Source of the DNA: Cinnamomum chago
Lineage: Eukaryota > Streptophyta > Magnoliopsida > Laurales > Lauraceae
NCBI GenBank assembly: GCA_038049695.1
Contig: CP142452.1
Span: 75,214,501 to 75,278,500, forward strand
Reading direction: 5' to 3'
Length of the DNA: 64,000 nucleotides
The stretch's first letter is position 1. The number at the start of each line of letters is the position of its first letter. Made by a program: the position numbers and the translations under genes. Under the pieces are notes generated by a model, which made no database searches, was not told the DNA's origin, and was given only the letters and a program-made list of their open reading frames with translations. Positions 28,901-52,100 of the stretch are shown piece after piece.

Positions 28901-31900
28901 GTGTGAAAAAGTCACACCAATAACTAGAAAAAATACAGCTAAAATGGTAAAATAAAAATAACAAGCACCTGGGCCAAGACTGTTTGGTTAGATAGCCTGT
29001 TGTTATTTTTCGCAGGTTCTATCTCCAGATCTCCCGTCAAGAGCAATCCAATGGTATTCAACGCACTGAGCAGATTTACTGTCTACTGGCATGGTGTATG
29101 TTTTGAAACAAGAATTCACCAGTCAGGATTGAGCTAAATATCTAGAGTAATAAAAAGATTATAGCAGCAGTTAAGAATGTAATAAGCAGAGAAAGTCACA
29201 ATCCATTACACGTGTGGTTTACCTTTTGTTGTGTGAAACCATAGACGGTACCTTGGCGAAGCTTCAAAATTGATATCAATGGCTCAAAGCCAACAGTTTC
29301 CTTCAGTAACATCTGCAATGCACAAATGAAATTGGAAATTGTTCCAACTACCAGAGAAGCGACATGACAACTGACCTCCTTTATTTCTTTTGAAATGAAC
29401 ACTGGACATTTTTAAAAGCCACATACCTGGTTCGATGTATTGTTACGAAGGAGATTGTTCAGCAACTCAAGGCAATCCTGATAAATAAAATACATAATGT
29501 TACCACCAGCACATTCACAAAATCATGAAGTTAATCTAAAATGATAAAACATGGATCTCAAAAGGCATGACTCATACAAAATAGAAGTCTCCAACTGCTT
29601 CAATTGGACCCCCAACCCACATCGTCAACGTCTCAAACCTACCCTCCAACACAAAACTGTAACTTCTATACAGCAAACAAGGAAAAAATCGCTGACAAGA
29701 ATATATCCTCCCTCTTTTATGAATGTTTCTGCTTAGTGTAAACCAAATTAAACTTCCAAGTTAATAACAAGGCAATGTGTATCAGGTACACATCTACCAT
29801 GGCACTCCCACACAGCGCATCAAATTTAAACAATCTGAATTAGATAGTATTCCCATGAGTCCTTACACATATTTTCAATGATTTTCTCGATGCTGCATTA
29901 AAAATATATTGAACTGAACCATTTTCAAAAAATATATATATTGAACTGAACCAGACGCAGGTAAATACCTGACGATGATTCAAAAGTAAAACAGGAGAGC
30001 ACTACATGACTGCTGCAAGTTAATGAAGCAGAATTGTTCAAAAAACTTCAAATAAATCCTGAGACAATGTTCACGTCAAAAAAAAAAAAAAATGGCATCT
30101 GAATCCCCGGGACACTAAGTTGTACATCCACTGTGATGTAGGAGCAGAAGATCCAAAATTCATCGATCCTATTTTGGATCGATCCTTGACTTATTTGGAT
30201 CAATTTGACCTGTCTAATGGATTTTTTTTTTCCATCTTAATCGGGGCCCAACAAAACACAAGGGCTGAAATATGAATTTAAATGGGCTTCAATGGGTTCA
30301 AAAATCCCTAAATTCAAAGTAAGCGTGAAGTAAAATCAATTAAGTCCTAACCATGAAGGATTGACCCATAGTAAACCAATTTGTATAACACTACATATTC
30401 TACAAGTGGGCAACAATCCATGACAAATATGCTCAACAAAGTGGGACCAATCCCAGTTGGAGTGGGACATCCAATGACTTCTAAATCATTCCAATTGCAA
30501 TTTTTGAAATTGAGCTAAAGAGACCCAAAGAAGGCTTCCTTAATTCAAGGCATGCTCAAAGGAAAGGAGATCCAAAAGAGGCAAGAGGATAGACTCTCCA
30601 CATGGGATGTCCAAGGGGGTATTGAATCCCGCAACTTTTTCAAATCTAGTTTATTTCCTATATTTTATCAATTGTTGGGCTTTGTAAGGATTTATTTATT
30701 ATTTTCTTTAATTAACTAGATTAGATAGATGGCTAGGATTAAATCTAGTGCCTAGCGTTTTAAGTTGTATCCTATATAAACAATAGTTTGGGATGTCCAA
30801 CCCAATGCTTGGGCTACTATACTTCTTTTCAATAAAAGTGATCCATGGCGTGCACCTTCTCTTCCCTTATCCATGGCATGCAAGTGTCTCCCAAGGATTG
30901 AAGACCAATCAAGTAAGAATTAGTGACTCAGGGTAAGCTATTTTCTACTTTTCTTGGGTTTTCATATTTAATTGTAGATCAGGTTTGACTTTGATCTATT
31001 TTTGGGTTTTTCTGATTCAATTAAAGTTATTTTCATTTGGGCTCATCAGATAGTCCGATTGCTAATTGGGACTATGTCACACCATCATAGTTATCAGAAT
31101 CATACGATTCGTATCCTGAATCTTAAGAAAAACGATTTGTATCTATGTAATGAATCCCATTTACAAATGAATCTTAGGATTCATGTATGAATCATACATG
31201 AATCCTATGATTCGATACTCGTTTCATTGAATCTTACGATTCAACTGATTCGACTAAGCAAGAATGGCTATAGCCAATAAGCTAATATTAATAATCTTTT
31301 ACCTTTTTTTCTTTCTTTATTCTCTCTTTCTTTTATCGCTTGTATTTTTAAAAGGTTATTTAGCAGTTAACGAAACCTCGTAAGAATTTTTTACGGCTTT
31401 GATAAGGTTTTAAAGATGAATAAAGAACATGCATTTAACTAAAGCATTCGACTGTCCGTATGGTGCTTGTTTATATCTTCTTCTTTTTTTAATATATTTT
31501 GGTTTTTTTACTTCACGAACACTTTCTTAACTTTAAGAGATATCGGACTGTGTAAGATTAATGGTTTGGATTTTATTTTATTTTTATATTTTGATTTAAA
31601 GATAATAAAAAATATATATTGATACTTTAAACTTATTTAACTATTTACACATCATTATTTCATATATATATGTAATAATATGTCATGATGTTCTTGATAT
31701 GATTGTATGATAGACTTAATATTATATTTATACTACTATAAATGGAAAAAATGATGGTTATGAATAATTACTTTTTCCTTTTTCTTTTAATCCATTTTTA
31801 TTAGAAAAATAAAAAATCATACGATTCACGATACGATTCGATTCATGGGTATGAACGATTTGCGATACGTTTCGATTTTGAAAACTATGCACACCATTAC

Positions 31901-34900
31901 TAATGAGAGAGAGAGAGAGAGGTTCTATTAAGGACCTTCACGAACCTCATAGAAAGAAGAACTCCTGTTACAGTTGGCTTAATCATAATCCATAAACATG
32001 TATGCTAAGGTGTCTAATCTCTTAAATTTCAAAGTTTTAAAGGAATCACCTGGACGACAACACCACCTTCTGAACCTCCTTCCTCTTTAATAATGGAAAA
32101 TATCTTGTCAAATGCACCCTCAAAAACCACAATCTTTTGAATTTCCTGAAAATCAACAAGTCCACCACTCAGTAGGAAAAGGAGAATAGTTTTATTGCAT
32201 TTTACATCCGATAAATCTTCACAAAATAGATGTGGAGATTGGGAAAGTCACCTCAGCTTCACGAGTCAAGTGAGTAAGAAGTAACAAGGCTTCATTTCGT
32301 ATAACCTGTCAAGCCAGTTTCCAGAAATTTGAGAACATCAACACGAGTGAAAGAAGCAAGCAAAGGAAAGGAAAATTCTATAAAATGATTTCAGATGGTA
32401 AAAACTGAAAAACAAGTCAAGCAAATTGAAACATTATTTTAGAAGGGAAAAAAAAAAAAGGAAAACCGACTTCTAGCTGATCTGGGGTGAATAATGAAAA
32501 TAATATCAGATGATATGCTATGTATCGGCTGTGATGGTGCACTATTTTGATCATACCTCACTATCTGCCCCTATCCCCAATATCAGCCACAAGGGCCACT
32601 AACAACCAATATTTATTTTTTTTAAAGACTAACAACCAATATTATCAGCAGTGACAATTGCAAAAATTGAATTTAAAAAAAAATTATGACAAAGATATTA
32701 CAGGTGAAGATCCACGAGGGGCCATCAAATTCTCTCCCATTTGATATGAAATAATTACCCAACGATCACCTTAGTAAATTAAATCCTCGGGAAATGATGG
32801 CCCCTTTTAAAGCTACACCTTAAACATTCACTTGAAACCTTTAATACAACTTCTTACGAAAACTCTCCTCACGTATAAATTCCTAGGAATTCAAAGAATT
32901 TAATACCAAGTACAAACACTACTCTTAATGTAATAGAGATTATAGCGTGGTTCTTTGTGGTTTTTACTTCGTGGGGCCTAATTACAACTATTACCAATTA
33001 TAGTAAGATATGAAATGGGAAGGAGTCATTATGGACAAAAGGAGGAGCACATGGAGTCAACATATGAAAGATCATAAGAGAAACCCAAAGCTAATACATA
33101 TATGACAATCATTTTATAATTTAGATAAAAAAGACAAGCTTAGAAAGACATTAAATTCCTTGCAACACTCCAATTCAATCATTAAACTTATATGTATTCA
33201 ACAATTTAGAAAAAAATAGCAAGAAAGCACCCGAATGACTTTGGGGGTCGACTACATACACTTATGTTGCAACCTAATGGGAAAATATGATTCTAGAACT
33301 TTCCAATATTCTTAACTTCTTGGATATTTTGGTAGGTGTTTCTTGAGTTAAACTAAAACTGACACCATGATAGACCATGACAGCTGTGATTATGTATTCT
33401 TGTGACGTATCAGTTTTTCAAACCAACCGCAACGCCCTCCTAAACCATGATATTAAGCTATGGTTGTATCTGACCATTATCATTGATTTTTTAAGTTGGA
33501 AAATGTATATCTTTGGTTTCTCATCTGTAAGGAGTTCTCTTGTTAGCAGTTCATGCATATTGAAAGCTCAATAATTTTTTAGAGTACTCCAATGTGAGGC
33601 TAGTTCAGTTGCAAAGCCTTTTGATGGAGTTCCAGCTTCCATGACACTATATAATAAGGAGACTCAATAGATACACTATGTCCTATTTCCTGATAATAAT
33701 CTTTACCGTCAATATTAGAGTTGGGAATTTGGAATAGACTCTCAAAAGTCCAAATGGTCAATGTTCATTTGCCCCAAGAACCAAATGTTGAATGAACTCT
33801 TTTCCAAAAGGTCGTCTCCTGAACAATATATCAAATGACGAGATGATTGACCATGGTCTATAGACATAACAAGATGACTGCAATAAAGTAACTTGGCCAT
33901 TGCGGCATTGCCTCTCACAAAACCGAAAATTTTCTTATTATCTTTTTTTTGTTTTTTTTATATTTTAAATAGTAATGAGTAACTTTTATTAGAAAGATAA
34001 AACACTAGAATGGGCATCAATTAATGGTGCCACAATACTCAGTGCGACTCTGTTAATCAAAAGCACAGAATCTAGCAAACTCTTGTCATTGAGAACATGA
34101 ATACCCTCATTTGAGCCTTACTCGCTACCTCCCCTGCAGTGGCTGAGCCTTACGCGCTACCTCCCCTGCAGTGGCTAAATTTTCTTAAAGCATTCACTGA
34201 TTCCTTTCCAACCAAATTGACCAAAGAACGACCACTAAAGAACTGCCCAACCTCATCAACTTGAAAACCCAAAGTGCCATGGTTACACTAGAATCATAAC
34301 TGTATCCAGCATTACCCACCATACTCAACACAACTTGAAAAAGCAATCCCCTGAACCTCTTTTGCTAGGGGAAAATGAATGCAAAGGAAAGGGCAGTCCT
34401 CTGCCTCCTATAGACATTAAAAAAAATACAAGCATTCACGCTGACCGCCTCATAGTTCCTGTCCCATTGATTATTCGTTATGAGTATCTGTTCCAAAACC
34501 GTTGTCCATTAAAAGGACAATACTCTAGGAGGTGCTCTTTATCTTCCACAAGTAACCCCCGCCCTTTCGAAGATTCACTTTAGCCCTTCAAGTGCTCCTA
34601 AAATAATTTAACAGAGAACATATGATCTTTTCTTCTTTTCTTTTTTTTTCTGAATGGCAACAGAGAACATAAGATCTTTATGTGACTTTTAAATGTGATA
34701 ACCAACACCATCATGTGGCGCACCCTCAAGGAAAGAAGAGCTGGAAAAACAAAGTCAGACCTCATCCCAAAGATTTCCCCCATTTTATTATTATTAAATT
34801 GTAACTTTTTTGTAACAGTAGCATAACTGTTAATATCATTAAACAGGAAAGAAAAAAAAAGGACTACAAGGCCTACACATCTCAATCAATTACAAAAATT

Positions 34901-37900
34901 TGAAGTGCTAAAAAGAACATTGTATTCCCTACTCTCTCCAACTAATCTTGACAATCCATTGGATACATTGCTACTTGGGAAAATGTAGGACAAGTTTCAG
35001 CAAGTGGCACATAAGCACACCAATAATCCTCCTAAAACCTAATGTCTCCCATCATAAACTTTGTAACCGAACTACAAGAGAAACTCAACTGGTAACATCT
35101 GGAACAACGAAGCAATTGTACCAACATGGTATTCATGGATAATTATTGTTTTCCATAATGCACATCCTCCACAGAGTCCAAACCCAACCCAACTGCCGTA
35201 GTCACTTGCTCAACAAAGCTGAGTTGACATTCTTGAATGAAAGGATACCCAGACCTCGAACCAGTTTACATAAAATGTCACAACAACGGACATTTGTAGT
35301 GCTCCTCCACCAGATTATTCCATAGGCAGTCCGTTGAATCTTCTCAAGATATTTAATCACAACCACTGGGCATCTAAGGACCAACAATAAATAAATACAT
35401 AAATGAAATAAACTTTCTAGCAGCCATGAAAGGACCCTCAACAAAGGAATTCAAAGCAAAGGAATTCAAGGTAGTTACATGTAAATCTTCTTTTCCTCCA
35501 TAAGCAAAAATTTTATATAAAACGATTTTTTCAGAATTAAATATATTACTTAAAGCCTTTCCCCAATTGAACTCTTCTAATGCAATGCTCATTATTTCCA
35601 AGGAAAATATTTTAATTTAGTTTTACTACATGAACCCTGCTGAATGAATCATAAATTCATAATAAGATTACGTATTTCCTTTGTCCTAAATTAGGCATCT
35701 GACAGCTTTAGATGGCATGGAATATGGTTTCTCAGAAAAAAGCTTGATTATGTATTAATTTTCAAATAGTTAGATCATCAACCAAGTTGTCCAATGTATA
35801 GCTACAGTTACGCTTTCAGTTATGATAGAATGGGGAGAAAAGAAGCTCATGCAACCATTAAAGAGCATCTATAAAATATTTCCAAGTTAGTTAAATTCGA
35901 CATATATATATATCCAGATTTGCATTCTTTCAGCTTTTTCCTCGATTAGCCTTTCATCGTTTTAAATAAGAAGTTTTGAAAAACTAGTATATGAACTTAA
36001 ATCTAATCTAAATTGAATTGTACTGAACCACCAAGCCTCTTTACTTCAAGGAAGACTCAATATGCTGATATTTGGTAAGATATCATAATGAATCATAATA
36101 ACAATAAAGATTACATTTGTCCTACATAAGACATGTAGACAGTCTAGATATAGAGTTTACTCCAAGGTGAAGCAGTGGCTAAAGGATAAATACACATCTT
36201 CATCAAGGAAGAAAAAGCACTCCAGATTGTGGAATGCAACTTTGCTAGGCCGTTTATGACCATAGTTGTTAAGTTCGTTTCGGACCCTATTTCGGTTTGG
36301 CTCTGAGCTGAAACAGTTCGGATGATTCGGCAATTCGGCTTTCCAATTCGGAAACTCATTTCGGAAAATAGAATATATATATATATATAATACATAAAGA
36401 AATTTCATTCTAGTAAGCATGAAAACTATAATTTCCAACTGATGGTTTTTTTATTATTTCCATCAAATACATCATCCTCGTATATCACAACAGAAAGTTA
36501 ACCAACCATCATTATCAGATTTCATAATTATAAAATGGGCCAACTCAGATCTCCTAATTTTAAAACATAAAAACAAAAAACACTTTTTGCATATCTAATG
36601 AAGGGCCTACATAAAAAAAAAATTATTAGAAAATGGGGAACATATGTCAAAATCCCCTATTTCATTAAATCAAATTGCACTTAAAACAATAATTTTAATA
36701 CACAAACAAAATTTCAGGTCATATCAAGTGGTTCCTTTGGATTATGTGAACGTGGGCTCATTTGATTTGGGTATCTTTCTCTTTTAGGTGGGCCCACTTA
36801 CAAAAACTTAAAAGAATGAAACAAATTTCAACTCCAGTGCACCCGATTGAACTCAAATCAGATGGCTCAGCTTTGATTGATTAAAAAAAAAATGTTGTGG
36901 TTACTTATTTGATCTTATGGTGGGCCCATCCAATTAAGTGGGGCCAGCAAATGAAAGCCAAAAGGGACTTTTTCGTTTACAAGAAGCGTTGAAAGTGGGC
37001 TTAACGAGTCTTTTAACCTGCTGCCTTGATTTCCGGAAGGGTTCGTGTGTTGCTGCCCTAAGTTAGAACAAGAAGAAGATCGCATGTCAACAATAGCAGC
37101 GATTAGAGCTTCAACTAGAAAATGGTATCAAGCTTTGGTAGGGGAAAGGGGATTCAACTAGAATTAATACGCTCCGTAAGGGACGCATGTGGGCTAGAAG
37201 AAGATGAAGTGTTTCCGGCAAAACTCATTGCTTGGAGATGAAGGTACATGGAACAATTCAATCGGCCACATTTATATCTCTACAAAAACTCAAAAGATGA
37301 AAATAACCTCTTTTTGGGTAAAAATATAAAATAACCTCTCAAAGTCTCTAATTTTTTCTTTTTCCATTTGATAAACTTCACACGAATTGCAGGTTACGGC
37401 CATGATGAGTCCGAAACTACCAATTCTGGTCCGAAATTATGAATCTTGGCTGAAATTACCCGAAATGTTCAACGAACGGGAAAAAACGAGGTGTTCAGTA
37501 CGGTTTTGCTACCGAACCGAACAAATCCGGAAGTTTCGGGTGAAACGAAACGAATTTGATAACTATGCGTTTATCTCGACATTCAAACTACTTTCCATAA
37601 AGAAAACATGTTAAAGTTGGAATTTGCAAAAATAACTATGAATGTTAATCAGTCAAAACTCATAAAGATGATGATGATGATATCTTTGAAGGAGAAGCAA
37701 AGTAGAAAGACACCACAGATTTAACTGTAAATAGATCTAGCGGCTTCCCAATAACAACACAAAACGCTACAGAATTTATAAAAGTAAACCCAAAAAAATA
37801 AGGCTATAAATCATATACAGAAATAATTATTTTTAGTAGCGAAAAGCCCGTAGTACTGTTAGAAGGTGCTCAGCTCAGCATCACAACCACGAGGGGTTGC

Positions 37901-40900
37901 AGGCTCGAGTCATGTTACCGTTCCAAAAAATTTATATAATTATCATTTTTAATAATTATATAGGAAACAATGAAACGAAACCCACACCTCACGATCCATT
38001 AGCATATCCATAAGCCTAGTTATTCCTCGAGGAGTGGCAAGAATTGCTTCTTGTAATCTGAAAACAAAGTCAGAAGATTTAGACCAAGAAATCCGAAAAT
38101 AGCTGTACAATGAAAAAATCTAAAAGAAAAAAAAAGAGTGCAAATATGTACATTAAAGCAATTGAAAAGAATACCTATTTGGTGAATGGCTAAGAAGGGC
38201 AGTCAAAATTTGAAGCGTATAATATCGAACATAGAAATCATCCTCTGACTGCCACAGTTTCAAATCAACAAAGAGAAGAACGTGTATAGAGCAATAGCTA
38301 AACCCACACACACGCAGGCGCGCACGAACACGCACGCACATGCATACACAAAAATAAAAAAGAGAAAGAAAAACTCACCAACAAGCTCAGAAGAAGAGAA
38401 ATGCTTCCCATCTCTCCAGAAAGCATATCAGAGTTCATTAGAGTGGGTTGAACCTCAGTCTTCGGCCCACGAACATGATCAATGGGAGTCAAGGCGCTTA
38501 CAAGAGTCTCCAGAGCACCTCGAACCTACATACATCCCATGTCCCACTGGTAAACAAGATGATCATTCCAGGTATTTCTAGCATGTTGGCAGTAACAGAA
38601 CATGAGTTTGGCAGTAGGATTGTTAATGGAAAAAAAAAAATCACAGGCAACAGATTAAAGGAAAAAAAAAACTATAAATGAAGTTTCTTTTTTATTTTTG
38701 AATAGTATAACTATACATGAAAATAAACAGTCTACATGTGTCATTAACCAAGTGAATGATGCTATACTGAGCAAATAGCTATGGATCCTAGGAGTGAATA
38801 TAAAGTCCTATGGATGAAACTGTAATAGATTGAGATTTGGCCCTATGACTCGATTAAATTTGAGCATCTAGAGGGGTATCATGAAAAGCAACAGCTCCTC
38901 CAACACGATATGATACAAGATGACAAGGGGGACAATATTCTTTAAGACAGACGAGTGGCATGGAGTCTAATGTGACAAGGCCCCTAGATCCTTTCAATTT
39001 AGCATCCAATCTGAAAGTAAGAATGGCAATTATGTGTGATGCCCCGGAGTCCCACATCGACTATAGAGAGGAAAGTGAATGGGGTTATGTGTAGAGCTTA
39101 TACCCTTACCTTGCATGAGGCCTTTTGATGGGTTGAGGTCCATCAGAAGCAAAACCGTGAGGCTGGTGGGCCAAAGCGGACAATATCATGCATGGTTGAA
39201 GGGTAGAGCGTTACAAATGGTATCAGAGCCGACTCTCGACTAGTTTGAGTGTGGGTCCTCTGTCGTGGCCTGGTGTAAGTGGGCGGGTCTCCATGTGGGC
39301 AGGCTAAGAGGGTTGGCAGGCTACAGGGACTGGCAGGCTACTGCACAGGGACGTGCAGCCCTAAGGGGGGTGGAATGTGACGCCCCGGAGTCCCACATCG
39401 ACTATAGAGAGGAAAGTGAATGGAGTTATGTATAGAGCTTACACTCTTACCTTGCATGAGACCTTTTGATGGATTGAGGCCCATCAGAAGTAAAATCGTG
39501 AGGCTTGTGGACCAAAGCGGACAATATCATGCATGGTTGAAGGGTGGAGCGTTACATTATGTATCTGGAAGCAGGTTTGAAGTGATTTGGCCACCCTTAC
39601 TATAATGCAGTCTCATAGATCAGGAGACGGGCCAAGTCATTAAGTTGTTTGAGACTCTCCAAGTGGCTTACGAGTTACAAACCCTGATATGGGGAAGACA
39701 GTTACTTTTGGATCAGTAAATGCAATCTCACAAATCAGGATACAGACCAAGCCATAGAGTTGCATTAGGCTCTCCAAGAGGTCTATGTGCCTTGGTAGGG
39801 GGAAGACATCTGTCTATAGATCGGTCCGATTTTTGGGATGCTTTGATGTGAGATCTTTTTATGGCCACATGCATGGCACTGACAGTTTGAAGCTCTGCCT
39901 CACATATATGGTATACTTCTACCCCTCCAAAGGTCTTCCATTAAAGATGGTATTTTGACCATGAACTTGGAGAAACAGATGAAGAACAATAGTCGATGGG
40001 TGTCTTCTCTGTCTTCAGGATGAGGAATTAGTCAATCACTTGCTCATTAATCGTGCCATAACTAAAGATATTTGGATGCTATACTCTCTTGGTTTGGAGT
40101 CCCCTGGGTGCTCCTGAAAAACATTGTTCTGCATTTCAAGTTGTGGCTTTATGACTTTCATTTACAAAGTGGCAAGACTTAAAATATGATCTCCTTTGTT
40201 GCAACTCGTTGGATTGTTTGGAAGAGAGAAATAGAAGATGCTTCAAGAAAAAGCAGATGTCTACTAGTGCACTAATATCCCTCATCAGATGGCCAGTTAT
40301 CCTAGACCTTTCCTTCGCAACCTTGTGGGTGCACCTAGAATAGATCTTGGATAGATAGAGGTGATAGATACTCATCAAAGTATATTTCCCTTGATGGTCC
40401 CTACCTCCAGAGGGTCAATGGAAGCTAAACTTTAACACTGTTGACTGATGCCAAGGGAAATCTAGGAGATAATAGAATTAGCTACTTGATTTGTGATAAT
40501 AGGAGTAGTATCCAAAGGGATTTCTCAAAGCTAGGAAGTAACAAAAGTATTAAAAAAGCTGAATTCCTTAGCCACTGATAAGAGTGTGGTAGGCTTATAA
40601 TCTAGTTTTTAACCTTGGTAATATAAGGGGATTCGTCTTTGCATGATCAATTGGCAAAGAACAAGACCTATGGCCCTGGAAGATAGGCTCAAGACTAGAT
40701 GAACTCAAGATTTACTCCTCAACAGGGAAGTTGCATTAACACGACTATCTCCAACGCTGGTTCTCTAGCCAAGGAAGATTTTGTGTGGGAGGGTTTTCAT
40801 TTGATGTATGATTAGGGCTGCTTTCTAAAAATGCACTATGTTTTCTTTCTTACTGTAAGTTTGGGTCCAGTGCCCTTCTTAGGAATCCCCTAACACCCTT

Positions 40901-43900
40901 CTATTTTTGCCTTCATTTAATCAATTTGGTTTTATGCCAGGGAGGTCAACTATGGAAACTATCTTCTCACCTAGGCAATTAATGGAAAAATATCGAGCGA
41001 AGAGGAAAAATCTGCATAGGGTCTTCATCGATCTAGAAAAAAGCCTACAATAGGGTACCTAGAGATTTAATTTGGTGGGTTTTAAATAAAATGAATGTTC
41101 CAAGAGGTTATATTGAAATTATTAAAGACATGTATGAAGGAGCGGTAACGAGTGTGAGAATACTTGTGGAGAGAGGTGAGTTCCGAATAACCATAGGTTT
41201 GCATCAGGGGTCAGCACAGAACCATTATCTCTTTGCACTGATTATGAATGAGTTAACTGCTCATGTTCAAGAAAAAACCTTGGTGTATGTTATTTGCAGA
41301 TGATATAGTGTCGGTAAATGAATCAAGAGATGGTGTGAATGCAAAACATGAGAGATGGCGGGAGGCTTTAGATTTTAGAATCCAAAGACTTTAAAATAAA
41401 CCGTACAAAGACAGAATATATGGATTGCAACTTTAATGGGCATGTAGAAAGAGCTGAAACTACTATGAGAATTAAAGGCCATGATGTACCACAAGATTCT
41501 TTCTGTTACCTTGGCTCTATAATTAGTAAGGATGGGGAGATTGATGAAGATGTCGAACATAGGGTGAAAAAGGGATGGTTGAAGTGGAGACTTGCTTTCG
41601 GGAGTACTTCGTGACCGAAAAATGCCAACAAGATTGAAGGAAGAATTTTACATGATAGCCATTAGACCAGCTATTGTCAAACTGGGCCCAAGATGATTCA
41701 GTTGAAACTAGCCCAGTTGCCTAAATGCCTCACATGTATATACTTGGTCAAAAGAATACACCTGTACATTCTTTTACTTAGGAAATTCTTTTACTGTAGT
41801 ATCTTTTAAAATTATGTAAGTTAGGAAGGATTGACTGTAATGATACTAATGTAAGCCTTGATTAAGGCAGTGATAAGCAATATAAGGTGTCGATCCTAAG
41901 AAAAGGAGACACATTTTCATCTCAATACTTCTTATTGTTTTTCGGTTTCTCTCCTCCTACCTAGAGCTTCATCAAATGTTACGGTATCGGAGCTTCCTAC
42001 TGTCAAGGTTCAAAGTTCTGGTTTCAAGCTTAGACCCTTTTCTAAGGCTTTAATAGAGATCTTCACTCACTGTCTTGAAAGAAATAGATCAGGAATATGT
42101 TTTATAGTAGCTGAACTTCATCCAGCACTCACGGTTTCTGTAGATCATCTCTGATCTACCATGGCCCACCAGTGATCATCAAGACCTGCTCATCCAGATT
42201 CCAGTCACTTCAGAGTCCAGCCAGGGTCGCCCACTGATCCATGGTTTTTTTGTGAATTTTCTGAGATTTTTCAGCATCTGGAAGTAAAGTCTTTTGACCA
42301 CTCTTGTGATTCGCAATTTTTTTCCTTTGTTTTTTTATCAAGACCGTCCAAAATCTTGGATCTTAGGTCTTTCTCAGATCAACTTTCACCAGTAGGAAGG
42401 AGATAACAGTCTGAAATCAGATCTGAGATCTGATCATGACTTAGATCTGTAAGTGGGGCCCACGTTGCTAATTTGGTGCTCTTTTAGGGTCGTCGGGGGC
42501 ATTTTTTTCCCTAGAGTGTGACTGTTTAACACTCTTCTTCAGATTATCAGTATTTGTCTTCTTCACTCAGTCTAAATCTACATTTGGTTCTATCCATTCC
42601 AGAGAGCATTTTCATTGCTGAAATTCTGTAGTGCTAGACATTTTTGTTCTTTCATATTGAACATCATTGAAATGGAGAAATCTGACGTTAATGTGATTAA
42701 ATTCAATGGTAAAAATTATCCATCATGGGCATTTCAGTTTCAATTCTTTTACTTTAGTATCTTTTATAATTATGTAACTCAAGGAAGGATTGGCTGTAAT
42801 GATACTAATGTAAGCCTTGATTAAGGCAGTGATAAGCAATATAAGGAGGTGTCGATCCTGAGAAAAGGAGACACAGTTTCATCTCAATACTTCTTATTGT
42901 TTTTTGGTTTCTCTCCTCCTACCTAGAGCTTCATCGAATGTTAGCTATGACCTACGGAGAGAATGTTGGTCGATCAAGAAGTAACATATGCACAAAATAG
43001 ATATAGCAGAGATGAGAATGTTGAGGTGAATGTGTGGTAAAACTAGGAAGGATAAAAAAAAGAAATGAGCGCTTTCGAAAGCATTTAGGGCCCGTTTGGT
43101 AATTAACTTTTAAAATAAAGTGGAGTGAAGTGAAATGAAATGAAAAGAATGAATAAAATATAAGTGAGTTATGATGATATTTTGTTTTTAGTTGTTTGAG
43201 AGAAAAAAAATTTGACTTTTTGTATGGGGAAATGGAATTTTTTTGTCTTTTAGTGATTAAATGTAGTTGCTTTTTGACTTTTTTTGGAAAAGGTGGAGGG
43301 AGTTTTGGTAAAAAGTGCTTTTGATGGGATGTTTAACTTGACTTGACTTCACTTGACTATATTAGTAAAATTACCAAACGGGCCCTTAGGGTTAGCATCA
43401 ATAGGGGATAAAATTAGAGAAACACGTTTGAGATGGTTTGGACATGTACAACACAAGCCAGCAACGGCGCCGGTTAGGAAAAGTTGGCTATGAAGGCTGA
43501 TCGCCCACCAAGGGGAAGGGATAGGCCAAAGAGGACGTACATGAAGATAGTAAAAATAGATTTGAATAAGTGCAACTTATATAAGGATTTGGCTCAAGAT
43601 AGATTAGAATGGAGAAACAAAATTCGTGTAGGTGATCCCAACATAGTTGGGACAAGGCTTTGATGATGATGATGACGATGATTTAATAAAAATTTCAAAA
43701 TAAAAAAAAAATCCTTGAAAAACTATGGTATTGCCCTTCATCTCTAGGTTCTCAGTTAGTTTTTCTTCCCATGGACTTTAAATCAATCAGACAATGTACA
43801 TAACAAATTTGCAACCAAGATAATATAACTAAAAATCAAATTAATAGATTACTTCAAGAAAGGATAGGTACACAAATAAGAAGGATCAAAGAAAACGAAC

Positions 43901-44012
43901 CATTTCCACATCATCACGCTCTTCCTTTAAGATAGTCAAAAGCACCGGAAAACCTATGCCCATAAATTAAAAAATTTTAAAAAAAAATGCAAACAGTATG
44001 TGTGAGCATGTG

Positions 44013-44047
<35 letters not shown>

Positions 44048-44665
44048 TTTTCCCACATACGGTAATATTCAGATAAGAACTAGTTCTCACATATTATATG
44101 ATAACTTTTTGGCGATGCCCAATTGTGGGCCCCATTTGGGGATGGGACTAGGGGTTATGGAAAGATCTATGTAAGACCACCCCAAGTATCAAGTTTGACC
44201 CCAAACTCATGCCCCTAACCCCTTCATCCATGACCCACAAGTTTAATGGCTTCATATTCAAAAAAATATTCAACCCTCGATCCAACAGTTCAGTCCATTT
44301 GGATGTGTGCCAATCCTTGGAATTAGTGACAATTAGGGGGTTTCCTATTGGTTGCTAGGTTTGGATGGGTTGCTAGTTGGGCCCCACAAAGAAGTTCTCA
44401 TATAATAAGTGAGAACTAGTTCTCACTTGAATATTTTCTCATAGCTCAAACCATGAGAACTATGAGTGGGGCCCACCTATCACCCAATCCAAACCTTGCA
44501 ATGGACAGGGACCCCCCTTGATAGTCACACATCCCATGATCTGGCACCAATGCGAATGAACTGGACCGTTGGATCAACTATATACCCATACGAATGGACT
44601 GGGTTTGTCGACCATGGATGAAGGGGTTCGGAGCATGGGATTGGGGCCAAAGTTGATATATGCCC

Positions 44666-44696
<31 letters not shown>

Positions 44697-47138
44697 AAGT
44701 CCCACAATCAGTGGGGCCTTAGGTGGGCCCCATCAAGTTTGTCACTCACCATATGGTAATGGTAAGGGATAGATGGACATGAATGCCCCCCATATACATA
44801 CATACATATATTAATATATACATCTATACAAATATAAGGGAAAAAAAAGGATGGAGCACTGACCCATTGCTCCAAATGCTAACTGAGCTGCTGAACTTTC
44901 TGCTACAATAGATTGAAGTTCAGTCATAGCAGCACGCCTATCATCTGCTAGAACTCCGTTGCTTAAACGGTCAAGCAAGCGTTCCACATAGCTATTGAAA
45001 CATGCCATTGGTAATGATTAATAATTAATAGTAAAGAGGAAGACACTAAAGAAGCTCTACTATCTTCTATTACAGCAAAAAATAAGAAACAATATTTAAA
45101 AAAATTGGAGATCCACAATCACCTTGCACATAGAAAACACATGCAATCAGCAATTCCCTGGTTGAGGTAACTTAAGCAATGCAGACCAGACAAGTCAACT
45201 AACAATTTTTTTTTTTTTTTTGAATTGTGAAAACTAACAATTACTATAAATGGAACTTCTAATACTGCCACCATACTAGGTTGAATAAAGATAAGATATC
45301 GTGTATGCTAGCTGTAAGGAACAAAACATGTTGACCATTTTTAAACACAAGGATGAAATTTATTTGACAACAAACAATTTAACTCCATATCAAAATGAGT
45401 AAATGCTATCCAGTAGATTGGCCAATAGCATGTGTGCAAATGCATGGCGTGTGGCGCTGCAGGTGTGTGCACACAAATGCGTGAGAAGCGAGAACAAAGG
45501 TTGTGTATGAGATTGTGTGGGGCTGTGGGTGCGTGCATTTGAGGTATGAGAAGAGAGAACAAAGGCTGTGTGTGTATGAGCATTGTGTGGGGCTGTGGGG
45601 GCATGGATTTGATGAATGAGAAGAGAGAATAAAAGGTACAAGAGATTCTTGGCTAATCCCATCTATTTAGGGTTGCTTTTGTGTGTTATTCTTTCCACTT
45701 GACCCTATTTGAGGCCATGCTTCCCATAACTCCACAACTAGCATGCTCATCCTATTGAACTCCACTTTCTCCGAGTTCCCCAAACTAGAAGCCCTTTGAC
45801 ACATCATACAGGAGCTGATTCAGGCTTTCTTTGTACATGCCCATATCATCTAAAATAGCACTTCTTGAATTTATCTTCTCTTGAAACTCTACCCAAAAGT
45901 TCCGTCTTACAAATTCAATTCTATTTCTAATTTCTATCCCTTCTTATAACTCCACATATCCATCTTAGCTTGCGCACAGCAGCCACCTTCACTTTGGCTT
46001 CTTGTTATTTCTTTGTTACCCATCCAAAATTCAAGTGTTCAACTCCATCCAGAAGAGCAGGTTTAACTGTCATATTAAAAATATATATATATATATTCAT
46101 TTAATCGAAGTGGCAAATGACAATTATATAGGATTCCATTTTCTTGTGTCTGCTTAGCCTGAACTACATTGATCCTATTCTCTATATTCATTCCAATCCC
46201 TCTTTTTTTTTTTTCTACAAATGGCCCAATATAATGAAATATACTGCAATGTCGTAGAAGTGATATTCAATTTGACAAACTCATCTTCTCTACTCTCAGA
46301 ACCACTAAACTTGCAATCATATTTTTTGTTCTGCTAATTATCCGCTCATTAGACTCAAACTCCTTTCTTCAAAAAAGTACAAGCTTATCATTTATCTTTC
46401 TTGTTTGATAATTGACCATCACTTCATCTACACATACATACACGATGAGACTCACCTTGGATATCAGTCATCATGTTGTCCATAGTCAAGGCAAATAAAG
46501 ACTCAAGCAAACCCTTGAGACTTATTCAAAACTTGGCAAATTATTTCAGTGTTAGACATACAGGCACTCTTTTGGGCATACAGTCACTCATGCTGTAGGG
46601 ATAGTGATCAAATAAACATCTTAAATTATTTTTTATAAGATACAATTTTCTTTCCTAAAATAAAGGAATTCAACTAAGGGCAAAAGGGAACAATTATATA
46701 CACAGAATAAACAAAATTATCCACATAAAGTAAAATGCATCCAAAAAACACAGATGAGAAGTTTGCGTGCATAGCATAGGTTGTTCCACTTAAACATGAT
46801 AATTTATATGCACTAAGCAAAAATTACGTGATTAAATTACTCATGCACAAGGCTTGCCTTTTATAGTATACTACACATAGCACGGCAAATTCCAACTATG
46901 TACACATTTGATAGAATAAATAAATGGCACCATTACATAGCTACGGGGTCATTTGTTTGCAACATTTTACATATGCAGACGTTACTCAAGTGGAAAATCT
47001 ACATGGGTATTTTAGTTTCATGAGACTTGCATATGTAAAAGATTCACGAGTAACAAATGGTGTGCAACTGGGCCGATTTTCATGCAAAAAGTTTTCACAC
47101 CTCCCACACTTGTAAAGTCATTTACACATGTAAATGGC

Positions 47139-47182
<44 letters not shown>

Positions 47183-50100
47183 GAAACGTAATGTACATGG
47201 CATGAATCCTTTACAGAAAAGCAAAAGGAGCCAAAGTTGGCAGAGAACGCATGTTCCATTTCACAGGACTGGGCATCAAATCCCTCTAGCCTCTTTTTTA
47301 TGCATGCTAACAAGGCAAACATCACATCCCATGGTTTTTTTTTTTTTTTTTTTTTTGGCATTCGTGGAACCCAATATGTAATCCAAACCATTCAACATTT
47401 TTCACAAAACTAACAAATCACAACATGCGAAGTTTCATATCTTACATCCTCATAAATTTTAAGAATTATATGAAAAATGAAAAAACAACCTAATCTATTT
47501 TATTTATTTTTTCTGCATTCATGTGAGCCCTGCATTCGTGATTCAAACCATTCAATACTCATAGATATAATAAACCCAAAGGTGAAGCTTTTTATATCTT
47601 AGATCCACACAAATTTTGAGAAACATGTGAAAAATAAAAAAACTGAATCCTACTATCTGATTTCTGCACTTTTATGGCCTCCAATTCATATTCAGAATCA
47701 TTCAATATTCTCATAGAAATTATTAACCCTAGTGTATGAAGTTTCATATCGTAGATCTTCATGGGTTTGGAGAAATACGTGAAAAACACAAAAACAACTT
47801 AATCTCAATTTTTTATTGTTTGCACTAGTGTGATCCCCCAATTCAAGATCCGAACCATCCATTGTGTTTGAGACCCACTATTTCCTCTATAGACAAGTTT
47901 TGGGGTCTTGGCCCCCAAAGCTGAATAGGAACTGAGATAGATCATTACTTCCTGTTCCTCTTCCCATCCCCATACATTGATTTCTTAATTTTTTTATATT
48001 TACACATCCAATTAAAAATAAAACGTGGTATAATAAATCTCACATGAAAATGATACTTGAAAACAAATGATGTAATACAACCAACATATGTAAACACATA
48101 AGAATTTTACATATGTAAGTTTCATTTATTATTCCCATGAATAAAAAATAAAAAAACAAAGGACCCATAACAAAATAGCAATATTGTTTACATAACTTAG
48201 TAGTAAACAACATTGTATCAATTATACACCTAAGAGAATTCATTTGACTTCAATGCATAGCTCCAGCAAGAAGAAGATATATAGTATAAATTACCTATCT
48301 TCATTGGAAGCTGAACTTTCATTACCGAAAACAAGCCCGCCAACTCCCTACACAAAAGTTCAATTTAGAAAAGTGATTTATAATATTCACAAACTTTATT
48401 CTAGAATTTTGGTACCATTACATATCAACCACTGGTCCACTGCACAAATAACATCATCAAGTTAATATTTCTGGAGCTATCAACAGGAGACTTCTACAAG
48501 TTTGAATTTCTCTCAAGTTATTAACAGATAAATTTAAAAAAATAATAATAATAATAAAAACATCTAAAAATAAAATATATAGATGCAAACAATATTAAGT
48601 AATAAGATAAATTTATACTATAATTATAGGAAACATAAAATTGATGAGGATATAAGATAAAAGATAAGCACTGGATGCATGACAGTCTGAGTCATGAATG
48701 AAGACACTCCAAAGAAGCACTAAGGCTCACATTGTTATCATTTGGAAGGTAAGGTAACTTGGTGAGGATAAAACTAATATAGCCTGGTTTGACATAATCT
48801 TTAGAGCACCTACTCATGATCAATCTAACCTTTTCAGCCTCAGTACGACCCATTGACCCCATGGTTTTACACCATAGTTATCAAATTCGTTTCGTTTCAC
48901 CCGAAACTTCCGGATTTGTTCGGTTCGGTAGCAAAACCGTACCGAACACCTCGTTTTTTCCCGTTCGTTGAACATTTCGGGTAATTTCAGCCAAGATTCA
49001 TAATTTCGGACCAGAATTGGCAGTTTCGGACTCATCATGGCCGAAACCTGCAATTCGTGTGAAGTTTATCAAATGGAAAAAGAAAAAATTAGAGACTTTG
49101 AGAGGTTATTTTATATTTTTACCCAAAAAGAGGTTATTTTCATCTTTTGAGTTTTTGTAGAGATATAAATGTGGCCGATTGAATTGTTCCATGTACCTTC
49201 ATCTCCAAGCAATGAGTTTTGCCGGAAACACTTCATCTTCTTCTAGCCCACATGCGTCCCTTACGGAGCGTATTAATTCAAATCATCAACATTATATGGT
49301 CAGGATATCTCCTGAAGTTAACAAGAGGTTTATGGAGAAAAGACAGAAGAGAAAAAAAAAAAAGGAATGTAAGACGAAACCCATTCATACGGTCAAATAC
49401 TCCAATCACGTATATTCCTTATATATCTCTAAAACCTCAAAATCCCCATAATAAAACACTACCAAAAAAAGATAGAAAGAATGTAAAAGAAAAAATTATT
49501 AATACTAGCCACTCAGTTGTGACTAATCCCGACTAAACAAATCACTTTAATCATAAGATTATATAAAATAAGTATAGAATAGCAAGATTCGCACTTGAAA
49601 CCTAAGATTCATCTGTAAATGGGATTCGTTGGATAGATGTGAATCTTTTACCCTTAGGATTCGATACAAATCATAGGATTTTAATAACAATTTCCACAAA
49701 ACAAAAAAAAAAAGCATTATTTCCAATCTAATGCATTTTATACAATTTTCCCATTTCCAAAACAGTCGCAATAATATAGGCAAATTTTCAGAATACCATC
49801 AATTTTGGTAACAATGATGTCAACAACAAACGAAGAAAGTTCAATACATGTAACTTAGATGAAAAAATTATATATTGATTCGACACATTTAATCAATGGA
49901 TCAAAGCCCATTAAGTAGCAAACCCACTATTTCTATATAGAAATTTGTTTTTTAAACTTATTTATGTAGGCAAAGAATATGTTTCAACTTATGATGCACA
50001 GACCACTGATACTTCAAAATGGACAATGTATCGTGTTGAATTGTATCTGATACTTCACTTTTTACGTGTAAAATTCATGTCCCCGCCGTGTCCACGGCGT

Positions 50101-52100
50101 GTCCTTATCGTATCTATGCCGAATCTGAGCATCATAGGTTTCAACAGCAGGCTCGCCAAAGTAAAGAACTGCAATGGTCGTGCACCGACCACAAAGGGAA
50201 CCGAAAAAGGCCAAATCACCAAGACAATGAACAAATGAGAACCAAAAGCAATCCTTGATAAGGATTCCATTGTCAAGTTTGCACCCTTAGGGCCTATTTG
50301 GATAGGCAAAAAATAGAGTAGAGTGAAGTTAAACGAGCCCTAACAGTCTAAAATTTCAACTCTACCCCGTTTGGATGAATCTGGCCTGATAGATAAAGTA
50401 ATGTTGTGAGCCACATGTACTCCATTTCACTTCAACTCTAAATACTTCCATTTCCTTGAGTAAAAGTGAATTCTACTCCAAACCGTCACTTCAAAATAAG
50501 CATCAAAATGAAAAATGAAGTGAAGTGAAGTACTCTGCTTTAACTTCAACCTACTTCTCTTCACTCCACTCCACATGTGAAATCCACATCATCTTACTCC
50601 ACTCCTCATTTATCCAAACAGGCCTTAAGGAAATGTGAGTGTGACTTTCAAGAAAATCCTTCGAGTCATCAATTACGGTAGCCATTCCGTAACGCACACA
50701 CCCAAGTAAGATTGCAGGAAACTCCATTTGAAACATGGACAGGACCCAACTTTTTTTTTTTTTTTTGAAAGGTGGACCCTCCTACTCCCGCCTCGCCAGA
50801 ATACAGAATAAAATAGAATCGGGTTTTGAACCACCCTCTCAAAGAGATAACCACTTGAAGGTCATGGGCATAACCCCTCTGTCAATGACCTCCAACTACT
50901 TCCAGTCAAGAAACTCAAACAATGAACTAGCGAAGTGCTTCAATTCTAAAGCCCAAGAGATCCCTTGCCTCATAATGAGGCTAATCAGGTCAATCGCCAA
51001 CATAGATTTGTTCCCAAAGCATCCACTTCTCTCTTTCCAAATATACCATAATGCAACTGCAAATGATGTCATTTAAAAATACAAAAAGTCTACTTGGACA
51101 AACTTTTTGGCCAGAATTTTGGCCAACCCATATGGTTTGCATTGAATATCACTATGATATTCAATGCAAACCATATGGGTTGGCCAAAATTCTGGCCAAA
51201 AAGTTTGTCCAAGTAGCATTACTCTTAAAAATATTTCCTCCAACGTTAGGAAAGAGGAGCCTCCATCACATGAAGTCACCTCCGAAAACCTAATTGTATT
51301 GGACCTTCCGCTTCACCACCTTTACATTCTATTTGTACATTTGTTTATATTTGAAAATCCAAAAAACAATAAAATAAAGATTTAAGTTTTATTTTCTATA
51401 CAATTTTCAAAAAAAAAATCTTCTAAACAAAAAAAGGACCAAAATAAACTTCCAGGGTGGATATATTGGCTGACAGTGAGTTTGAGACCGCGCTTATAAG
51501 TAATACATCTGATTTTTATACTATAACACAACGAGTTGAAATTTGAAGCAAAACGAGGGGGGGCGGGGGGTGGCGCATTCGATTACTTGTTATAGAATTC
51601 CTAGGAATTCATGCTAAAAGGGAGATCTTTATAGACTTTAAGGAATACTAGAGTGTTGACCTATGCAGTGGAGATGTCATATCATTTCCTCTGCAATTTA
51701 ATTCGCTAAGAAGACGCGTAGGTTTACCATTTCCTACCAAAGAGAAGGTTCACCTTTAACCGGTCACTTTTAGCCATTCCTATACAAAAGCATAGCTTAG
51801 GAGACCTAGTAATTCAATACCAATCAAACCGGCAGACCCTCTAAGGATCAGCCGATCAGGTAAGTTAACCTTCAGAAATTCGTTGAATCAGCAAAATGAA
51901 AGAAGCGCAGAAGAGAAAGATCCAAACATTGTAATAATCAGAACTTCTAACCACACATCACCAAGAGAAGTCATCAATAAAAGCTTCCACATGCAGATGC
52001 AACAGACCCAAGGTCACCAGAATAAAGAAAACCTAACAATTGAAGATTCAAGTACCTGAGCGACGGCATTGAGATTTATGCGGCCGAGCTTGAAATCCAT
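16936..52100 (-). CDS. MAG4: p115/Uso1 vesicle-tethering golgin (Golgin candidate 6)
   Basis: Nineteen exons with canonical GT-AG sites: 52100-52056, 48347-48295, 44991-44864, 43953-43901, 38525-38379, 38248-38175, 38057-37988, 32305-32252, 32145-32050, 29477-29427, 29312-29223, 29082-28969, 28885-28814, 27246-27061, 24459-24356, 24174-24126, 20494-20429, 19577-18798, 17505-16936. The joined CDS is 2802 nt, in frame throughout, encoding 933 residues; the Arabidopsis protein is about the same length. Residues 1 to about 700 form the armadillo-like Uso1/p115 head (landmarks ERLLDRLSNG, DFYVRYYTLQILTALL, LLLLTHLTREAE, GFEPLISILKLR). About 740-905 is a coiled coil. The last 18 residues are Glu/Asp-rich. 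The product tethers ER-derived vesicles at the Golgi; loss in Arabidopsis impairs storage-protein export (family knowledge). The head-domain exons are spread over 35 kb by large, TE-filled introns. No disabling change was seen. Confidence 0.96.
20632..22955. mobile_element. Solo LTR (2324 bp) in p115 intron 16
   Basis: A TG...CA segment starting TGTAATATC and ending GGTTGTGACA, flanked by identical 5-bp target duplications GAAAC (20627-20631 and 22956-22960). No interior, primer site or second LTR is present, so this looks like a product of LTR-LTR recombination. Read on the minus strand it starts TGTCACAACCC, a start common among plant Ty3/gypsy LTRs, but a TATATATATA stretch near 20808 would fit plus-strand transcription. 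Orientation is left open. Several 'gtgggacccac' phrases recur inside (21230-21900). Confidence 0.85.
27618..27644. repeat. (GA)n microsatellite
   Basis: About thirteen GA units in p115 intron 13. Confidence 0.95.
31086..31889. mobile_element. TIR DNA transposon, non-autonomous (804 bp), CATAGTT family
   Basis: Starts CATAGTTATCAGAATC and ends GATTTTGAAAACTATG, inverted with few mismatches. Flanked by a perfect 8-bp duplication CACACCAT (31078-31085, 31890-31897). The interior is rich in GATTCG/CGAATC motifs. It has no coding capacity. An 8-bp duplication fits hAT or Mutator-like elements. Located in p115 intron 9. Confidence 0.85.
32614..32627 (-). mobile_element. 14-bp retroposition stub
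   Basis: Fourteen T-rich bases between two exact 16-bp copies of ACTAACAACCAATATT (32598-32613, 32628-32643). Interpreted as a nearly empty target-primed insertion. It lies in p115 intron 7. Confidence 0.5.
34631..34658 (-). mobile_element. 28-bp retroposition stub
   Basis: A T/C-rich 28-bp insert between two 21-bp direct repeats (34610-34630 and 34659-34679) that differ at one base. A minus-strand poly(A)-tailed stub is the simplest reading. Confidence 0.55.
34850..35640 (-). mobile_element. Degenerate L1-type LINE fragment
   Basis: Minus-strand frames broken by stops contain the stretch LVRGLGILSFKNVNSALLSK at about 35205-35265, which resembles the conserved GGLGI...NxALLxKW region just after the reverse transcriptase of plant L1 LINEs. 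The adjoining frame around 35374-35601 appears to belong with it. It lies in p115 intron 7. Confidence 0.55.
36261..37567. mobile_element. TIR DNA transposon, non-autonomous (1307 bp), CATAGTT family
   Basis: Starts CATAGTTGTTAAGTTCG and ends CGAATTTGATAACTATG, as inverted ends. The flanks CGTTTATGAC (36251-36260) and CGTTTATCTC (37568-37577) agree at 8 of 10 bases, fitting a decayed Mutator-type 9-10 bp duplication. The right 407 bp recurs inverted and almost identical at 48873-49279. Many CCGAAA-type motifs occur near the right end. The 75-residue open frame at 37387-37614 is probably not a gene. Located in p115 intron 7. Confidence 0.8.
39035..39556 (+). mobile_element. Complete TRIM retrotransposon (522 bp)
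   Basis: Two 181-bp LTRs, 39035-39215 and 39376-39556, each starting TGTGAYGCCCCGGAG and ending GAGCGTTACA. Three bases after the first LTR is a tRNA-Met primer-binding site, TGGTATCAGAGCC (39218-39230). A purine tract, AAGGGGGGTGGAA, abuts the second LTR. Flanked by 5-bp target duplications TTATG (39030-39034, 39557-39561). The 160-bp interior has no coding capacity, so it must be moved by proteins from elsewhere. It sits antisense in p115 intron 4. Confidence 0.95.
39840..40600 (+). mobile_element. L1-type LINE 3' fragment (zf-RVT and RNase H-like parts)
   Basis: Broken plus-strand frames carry a zf-RVT-like part near 39940-40230 (landmarks EELVNHLLI and TRWIVWKRE) followed near 40425-40570 by an RNase H-like start (LTDAKGN, KAEFL). 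This order is typical of plant L1 LINEs that carry RNase H. Stops and frameshifts are numerous. Confidence 0.55.
41675..42943 (+). mobile_element. Internally deleted Copia retrotransposon nested in the LINE
   Basis: LTR 1 spans 41675-41991. It is followed by a primer-binding-type CGGTATCGGAGC, a leader, and a gag start at 42672 (EKSDVNVIKFNGKNYPSWAF, typical of Copia gag). The frame then runs straight into the 3' part of LTR 2 (about 42743-42943); all of pol and the first ~120 bp of LTR 2 are gone. The junction falls in a short ATTCTTTTACT match shared with LTR 1. Target duplications GCTAT flank it (41670-41674, 42944-42948). Confidence 0.88.
43088..43385. mobile_element. PIF/Harbinger (Tourist-like) MITE nested in the LINE
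   Basis: 298 bp. Ends are GGGCCCGTTTGGTAATT and its inverted partner AATTACCAAACGGGCCC, with TTA target duplications at 43085-43087 and 43386-43388. Removing it with one TTA leaves the surrounding LINE frame continuous, confirming both borders. Confidence 0.93.
44064..44435. mobile_element. MITE with ~38-bp inverted ends
   Basis: AATATTCAGATAAGAACTAG... at the left is matched inverted by ...CTAGTTCTCACTTGAATATT at the right, with four or so mismatches. The GAGAACTAGTTCTC core is itself palindromic. No clear target duplication. Located in p115 intron 3. Confidence 0.75.
44663..44698. repeat. Poly(C)-poly(A) tract
   Basis: Twenty-four C followed by twelve A in p115 intron 3. In the p115 pre-mRNA this is a run of U then G. 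Confidence 0.95.
45208..45231 (-). mobile_element. 24-bp retroposition stub
   Basis: A T-run plus GAATTGTGAA-type tail between 11-bp direct repeats AACTAACAATT (45197-45207, 45232-45242). Read as a very short minus-strand poly(A)-tailed insertion in p115 intron 2. Confidence 0.5.
45655..46500 (-). mobile_element. Possible decayed RTE-type LINE fragment
   Basis: On the minus strand, phrases such as 'aagctaagatggatatgtgg' near 45950-45975 resemble the LRWMCG region near the 3' end of RTE LINEs, and the flanking sequence has the character of a long-decayed copy. No intact frame remains. Recognition is by wording only. Confidence 0.3.
47142..47178. repeat. (CT)n microsatellite
   Basis: About eighteen CT units in p115 intron 2; (AG)n in the pre-mRNA. 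Confidence 0.95.
47355..47850. repeat. Three diverged tandem units of ~160 bp
   Basis: Starting near 47355, 47518 and 47680, each unit has the order 'atccaaaccattcaa', 'gaagtttcatatctta', 'gatcctca...aaattt', 'gtgaaaaa...aaaac', 'tgcat'. The units are diverged but in register. In p115 intron 2. Confidence 0.65.
48873..49279. mobile_element. Inverted near-identical copy of the right 407 bp of the element at 36261-37567
   Basis: From CATAGTTATCAAATTCG at 48873 to the end of similarity at 49279, this is the reverse complement of 37161-37567. The length is the same and I could find only three mismatches. The rest of the element is missing, and sequence of another kind begins at 49280. It lies in p115 intron 1, about 525 bp upstream of exon 2. 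Confidence 0.9.
49560..49710. mobile_element. Partial copy of the 31086-31889 element family (inverted)
   Basis: The reverse complement of about 49598-49695 follows the first part of the 31086 element (landmarks GAATCCCATTTACA, ATGAATCTTAGG, ATTTGTATC). The terminal repeat is eroded. Confidence 0.55.
49995..50150. repeat. Dispersed repeat shared with 60160-60300
   Basis: Same-orientation match running from TTCAAAATGGACAA, through ATACTTCACTTTTT, to TCATGTCCC, GGCGTGTCC and GCATCATAG. The second copy is in the MYB3R gene. Family not recognised. Confidence 0.6.
50290..50624. mobile_element. PIF/Harbinger-type MITE
   Basis: Starts GGGCCTATTTGGATAGG and ends TATCCAAACAGGCC as inverted ends, with TTA duplications at 50287-50289 and 50625-50627. 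335 bp, in p115 intron 1. Confidence 0.8.
50748..51065 (-). mobile_element. 3' end of an L1-type LINE with poly(A) tail
   Basis: On the minus strand the sequence encodes an ALWYIWKER-like zf-RVT tail segment, then a 3' untranslated part ending in about sixteen A (the T-run at 50751-50766). It is 5'-truncated, which is usual for LINE insertions. In p115 intron 1. Confidence 0.65.
51090..51216. repeat. Perfect 62-bp inverted repeat with 3-nt loop
   Basis: Arm 51090-51151 and arm 51155-51216 are exact reverse complements, separated by CTA. If the terminal TA on each side is a target duplication, this is a 123-bp fold-back MITE starting CTTGGACAAAC. In the p115 pre-mRNA it would form an uninterrupted 62-bp duplex in intron 1. 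Confidence 0.95.

Follow-up and report, generated by a model that had tools for sequence, protein, structure and literature searches.

Introns 7 and 1 of a plant p115/Uso1 gene contain two inverted, near-identical stretches of 407 bp, one on either side of exons 2–7. They most probably represent two intronic copies of one terminal-inverted-repeat transposon that were inserted separately. We give a probability of about 0.75 to this reading, in which the gene yields mostly linear p115 mRNA and at most a minor 525-nt circle; such a circle would probably be functionless. The arrangement is of a known kind, and the p115 locus is a new example of it. All coordinates refer to the window, i.e., the whole stretch of 64,000 nt of Cinnamomum chago DNA that was analysed.

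The p115/Uso1 gene and its exons

The minus strand encodes a plant p115/Uso1 protein. Results of a Pfam scan of six window ORFs showed matches for two of them, to the p115 head domain (PF04869, 1.2e-17) and to the C-terminal domain (PF04871, 3.4e-30), while the remaining four had no Pfam match at E 0.001. Both the head and the C-terminal domain of a p115/Uso1 vesicle tether are thus present, and one of the two ORFs also matches p115 in PDB (2.2e-06). As the homology probe for the exons we used an unverified Arabidopsis p115 sequence. With this probe exons 3–8 gave matches at E 3e-4 or better; the match of exon 2 was weak (E 4.0, 17 aligned columns), and its frame and splice sites fit.

52056..52100, minus strand: candidate p115 exon 1, coding part, MDFKLGRINLNAVAQ; ATG-led open frame with a GT donor, phase 0, without homology support
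48295..48347, minus strand: p115 exon 2; splice sites, frame, weak probe match
44864..44991, minus strand: p115 exon 3; probe match, splice sites, frame
43901..43953, minus strand: p115 exon 4; probe match, splice sites, frame; donor gttcgt
38379..38525, minus strand: p115 exon 5; probe match, splice sites, frame
38175..38248, minus strand: p115 exon 6; probe match, splice sites, frame
37988..38057, minus strand: p115 exon 7; probe match, splice sites, frame
32252..32305, minus strand: p115 exon 8; probe match, splice sites, frame

Splice sites were read from the sequence. All junctions are of the GT-AG type, counted from the donor of exon 1 through that of exon 8, and the joined frame of exons 1–8 is open. 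Intron 1 measures 3708 nt and intron 7 measures 5682 nt. Exons 2–7 sum to 525 nt with both outer junctions in phase 0, exactly as the first-pass annotation had claimed. Its further point, that a circle of these exons or their skipping would keep the reading frame, is correct but unremarkable: of the 28 blocks delimited by exon ends within exons 1–8, 11 keep the frame, so its preservation carries little weight. An exon 2–7 circle would hold an endless frame of 175 codons, with no in-frame stop through three turns.

Downstream of the gene, on the minus strand at 4408–4694, we observed a degenerate p115-like fragment. Its part 4694–4515 resembles the Arabidopsis p115 probe (E 0.005, stop included) and 4408–4493 is 84% identical at the DNA level to 16986–17070; the fragment is probably a decayed partial duplicate.

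Inverted arms in introns 7 and 1

37161..37567, plus strand: arm A, within p115 intron 7; the right-hand part of a putative terminal-inverted-repeat element; 404/407 identical to arm B
48873..49279, minus strand: arm B, in intron 1 of p115; truncated inverted copy that keeps the element terminus at 48873 and ends at 49279

Arm A and the reverse complement of arm B form an ungapped alignment of 407 bp with 404 identical positions, which corresponds to a divergence of 0.74%. The mismatches lie at 0-based offsets 235, 258 and 336 from 37161 (37396, 37419 and 37497); where about three differences between the inverted copies had been reported, we counted exactly three. The arm sequence occurs twice in the window, and 11,305 nt separate the two copies. 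They were the sole inverted pair listed in 36000–50000 by an ungapped repeat scan (seed 14, minimum 60), and they ranked first among the 10 inverted matches that a gapped scan of 16801–52400 listed at E ≤ 1e-3, with a bit score of 632; the second-best match there (191) is a local palindrome. Arm A begins 420 nt beyond exon 7 and arm B lies 525 nt ahead of exon 2, both distances being those given earlier. Reverse-complementary sequences are therefore found in both introns flanking exons 2–7, as in a circRNA locus of the intron-pairing type. The description of the arms as closely flanking the exons stands as to distance, but the closeness is mild: with the arms placed uniformly in their introns, the probabilities are 0.08 and 0.16, and the feature was noticed post hoc. 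The high identity of the arms was the sole pointer we found to an assembly artefact. We regard this explanation as hardly credible, given the three substitutions between the arms, their different flanks on both sides and their difference in truncation.

The element containing arm A

36261..37567, unstranded: fuller element around arm A, with ends CATAGTTGTTAAGTTCGTTTCG / CATAGTTATCAAATTCGTTTCG
36251..36260, unstranded: left copy of the putative target-site duplication, CGTTTATGAC, matching 37568–37577 at 8/10 positions
37568..37577, unstranded: right copy of the putative target-site duplication, CGTTTATCTC, matching 36251–36260 at 8/10 positions

The terminus of arm A at 37567 reads ...CGAATTTGATAACTATG, and the opposite end at 36261 is CATAGTTGTTAAGTTCGTTTCG. 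These inverted 22-bp ends match at 19 of 22 positions. Directly outside them lies an imperfect 10-bp duplication (8/10) in which the first 7 positions are identical. Among 200,000 random 10-mer pairs drawn from the window, 0.107% match at 8/10 or more and 0.0215% share the first 7. Given the matching ends and a flanking repeat as good as few random pairs show, we favour reading 36261–37567 as a terminal-inverted-repeat element whose putative right part is arm A. The transposon origin claimed for the arms is in this way supported by the termini, the 22-bp ends and the imperfect target duplication of arm A's element.

No ORF of at least 90 aa lies wholly inside the element. Short coding-like open frames were seen on the plus strand at 37080–37250 (...LELIRSVRDACGLEEDEVFPAKLIAWR), and they may possibly represent a captured gene fragment. 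When a captured gene in the interior was considered, neither QLELIRSVRDACGLEEDEVFPAKLIAWR nor a longer version of this peptide gave a Pfam match (E up to 5), and the longer version had no PDB match either (E up to 10). The predicted fold of the whole element has an energy of -305.2 kcal/mol; this value comes without a shuffle control (length above 1000 bases), and nothing is inferred from it.

Target duplications are about 9 bp long in the Mutator superfamily and 8 bp in hAT. Copy A has a 10-bp duplication with 2 mismatches, and an 8-bp one (7/8) fits only if the left end is moved 2 bp outward. The element may be hAT- or Mutator-like. It resembles plant non-autonomous elements of these groups in its short terminal inverted repeats, in a target duplication within the 8–10-bp range and in the lack of a wholly internal ORF of at least 90 aa, a placement made by general features.

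Copy B and the neighbouring elements

31086..31889, unstranded: E2, a CATAG...CTATG element in a later intron of p115; may compete for pairing with intron 1
49280..49691, minus strand: E2', a truncated older element adjoining arm B; relative of E2

The similarity of the arms begins exactly at the element terminus in both copies (CATAGTTATCAAATTCG at 37567 on the minus strand and at 48873 on the plus strand), as would be expected from transposition and not from random template switching. Copy B has one end only. Beyond 49279 no minus-strand match to the terminus was found within 5 mismatches; at up to 7 mismatches there are six (49606, 49692, 52323, 54582, 57089 and 63846), and the one at 49692 marks the end of E2'. 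The flank of copy B, GGTTTTACAC, has 8 copies beyond 49279 at up to 2 mismatches. None of the 8 is preceded by CTATG, and no target-duplication partner beside a second terminus was found in this region.

E2 and E2' form an older inverted pair of about 65–68% identity that joins a later p115 intron and intron 1 (local score 263; the highest among 100 shuffles was 143). E2 carries an exact 8-bp duplication, CACACCAT, at 31078–31085 and 31890–31897, directly outside CATAG and CTATG; matches at 8/8 occurred in 0.008% of random pairs. An insertion of arm B within E2' was considered and found no support, as the remainder of E2' was not found in 48300–48872 in either inverted (score 83, shuffle maximum 92) or direct orientation (66, shuffle maximum 96). 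A single family comprising A and E2 was rejected. The two are similar at their termini only, and their scores of 74 and 110 fall within the ranges of 60 shuffles, which reach 120 and 126. Since the likeness is limited to the terminal motif, the 8-bp duplication of E2 leaves the superfamily of A unsettled.

Probable transposition history

The simplest history that we infer would comprise two insertions, with subsequent truncation of the second. A family of short DNA transposons with terminal inverted repeats would have inserted twice, separately and in opposite orientation, into p115 introns 7 and 1. Copy A would have stayed nearly complete; copy B would then have lost its far end together with part of E2' and become fused to the truncated older element. 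The case for a transposon is built on the sequence of the two copies, their termini and the duplication, and is qualified accordingly as a probable one. We rejected a reading of the whole as one 12-kb element ending in the two arms, since a second terminus and a duplication belong to A itself at 36261, and p115 exons 2–7 sit in normal order between the arms.

A tension lies in the target duplication of A, which is mismatched at 2 of 10 positions though the arms diverge by so little. The duplication may never have been perfect, or the arms may have been homogenised. This discrepancy, together with the missing element end of B, would suit an alternative in which repair or template switching copied A locally to give arm B, or in which gene conversion keeps the arms about 99% identical. 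We consider it improbable, because the start of B coincides exactly with the transposon terminus, an outcome seldom expected of a random template switch, and conversion alone leaves the origin of B unexplained.

Predicted pairing of the arms and its competitors

On the sense strand the arms are predicted to form a duplex of 406 pairs with an energy of -750 kcal/mol. Self-folds of the single arms reach -90 and -97, and the mean of 20 shuffles of one arm is -126, so the duplex would be very stable, in agreement with the pairing potential claimed for the arms. Other inverted matches join intron 1 to later introns: 31087–31321 and 31387–31572 with 49469–49691 and 49275–49455, and 18463–18589 with 50011–50138. 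The predicted energies of these competitors are -282 (E2/E2') and -133 (18463–18589/50011–50138). Pairing of the two ends of element A with each other gives -28, and local hairpins give -110 at 51090–51216 in intron 1 and -245 at 44187–44658 in intron 3. As modelled, all competitors are far less stable than the arm–arm duplex, and doubts about pairing would concern distance and timing, not stability.

Several further structures were observed in the region. Intron 1 contains a near-perfect palindrome of 127 nt (51090–51216) with a predicted hairpin of 62 pairs and a 3-nt loop (-109.8 kcal/mol), which may possibly be a fold-back element or a source of small RNA. The sequence at 44187–44658 is a long imperfect palindrome (66%), perhaps an old fold-back element. 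A dispersed repeat of about 110–130 bp occurs at 18463–18593, 50008–50138 and 60173–60280, two copies being inverted inside p115 and the third lying outside the gene. No Rfam structured RNA matched in the window at gathering thresholds, and ARAGORN reported none in the window.

Possible consequences for splicing

As long as both introns remain in the pre-mRNA, the arms may pair, and back-splicing of exon 7 to exon 2 may rise. Such pairing-driven back-splicing is possible according to the predicted duplex. Transcription reaches arm A 11.3 kb later than arm B, and because of this delay intron 1 would usually be spliced out before pairing could happen. The timing argument draws on the general behaviour of co-transcriptional splicing.

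It is unlikely, in our estimate, that the arms drive substantial back-splicing, i.e., at least several per cent of p115 transcripts, with an abundant exon 2–7 circRNA and less linear mRNA, as is reported for reverse-complementary pairs of transposon origin in maize. The locus itself offers near-perfect complementarity over 407 bp, 420 and 525 nt from the splice sites, the top rank among the 10 listed inverted matches of the gene, and long flanking introns. Longer flanking introns are linked to circRNAs in tea (PMC9861842) and cotton (PMC13008959), and those of tea are also repeat-richer. Flanking repeats of at least 40 nt were sufficient in grapevine transient expression, and LINE1-like pairs are enriched in maize, where they occur at 17.3% of circRNA flanking regions (both in PMC11276256). 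On the other hand, the same 2024 review counts flanking complementary sequences above 15 nt for only 46 of 6074 exonic circRNAs in rice and 1 of 5152 in Arabidopsis; its other proportions are 20 of 2354 in a second rice set, 2.7% in soybean and 10 sequences among 720 in moso bamboo (PMC11276256). Reverse-complementary sequences were seldom found in tea (PMC9861842). In cotton the longest such region flanking circRNAs does not differ from that around random exons (P 0.62), with a lower repeat content (PMC13008959). At the locus, the 11.3 kb between the arms and the rival inverted partners of intron 1 at 31087–31567 and 18463–18589 also speak against a large effect. A stronger version, in which a recent transposon pair has made p115 a strong circRNA gene with an abundant exon 2–7 circle, its endless 175-codon frame and a lowered level of the linear Golgi-tether mRNA, appears very improbable.

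Long inverted repeats in plants are linked to siRNAs made by DCL proteins, and the main effect of the arms might lie there: their duplex would be diced to 21–24-nt siRNAs, which would methylate the two introns as well as the element's relatives. The near-identity of the arms, with its potential for 407 bp of near-perfect dsRNA, would favour such an outcome, but the 11.3 kb of RNA between the arms normally undergoes splicing, and we consider this outcome conceivable though doubtful. The preferred reading therefore remains that of two separate intronic insertions in a gene with mostly linear mRNA.

If a circle were found, p115 would let one ask, in a clean natural setting, if a near-perfect inverted pair of transposon copies is enough for back-splicing in a plant, where flanking complementarity is usually absent, and lines with and without arm B would supply the comparison. 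As known from DNA sequence, the p115 arms are an ordinary case of intronic transposon load.

Comparison with known systems

We found no literature linking AT3G27530 to circular RNA, and none linking golgin candidate 6 to circRNA. According to a 2020 review, few plant circRNAs have complementary flanking introns, and maize is the case enriched for transposons and reverse complements (PMC7248317). Transposon-derived reverse-complementary pairs flanking circRNA exons, termed LLERCPs, are known there (Chen et al. 2018, as described in PMC7248317, where it is named, and in PMC11276256). The p115 arms are like maize LLERCPs in being inverted transposon copies on either side of an exon block in a plant host; in contrast, the p115 element is not LINE1-like, and the case is that of one locus known from genomic sequence alone. 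Mammalian circRNAs, too, have been linked to young transposons, and many of these circRNAs are mis-splicing noise in the view of the authors (Gruhl et al. 2021, PMC8516420). With the mammalian transposon pairs the p115 arms share near-identical young inverted copies in the flanking introns, whereas the p115 case comes from a plant and is known from DNA.
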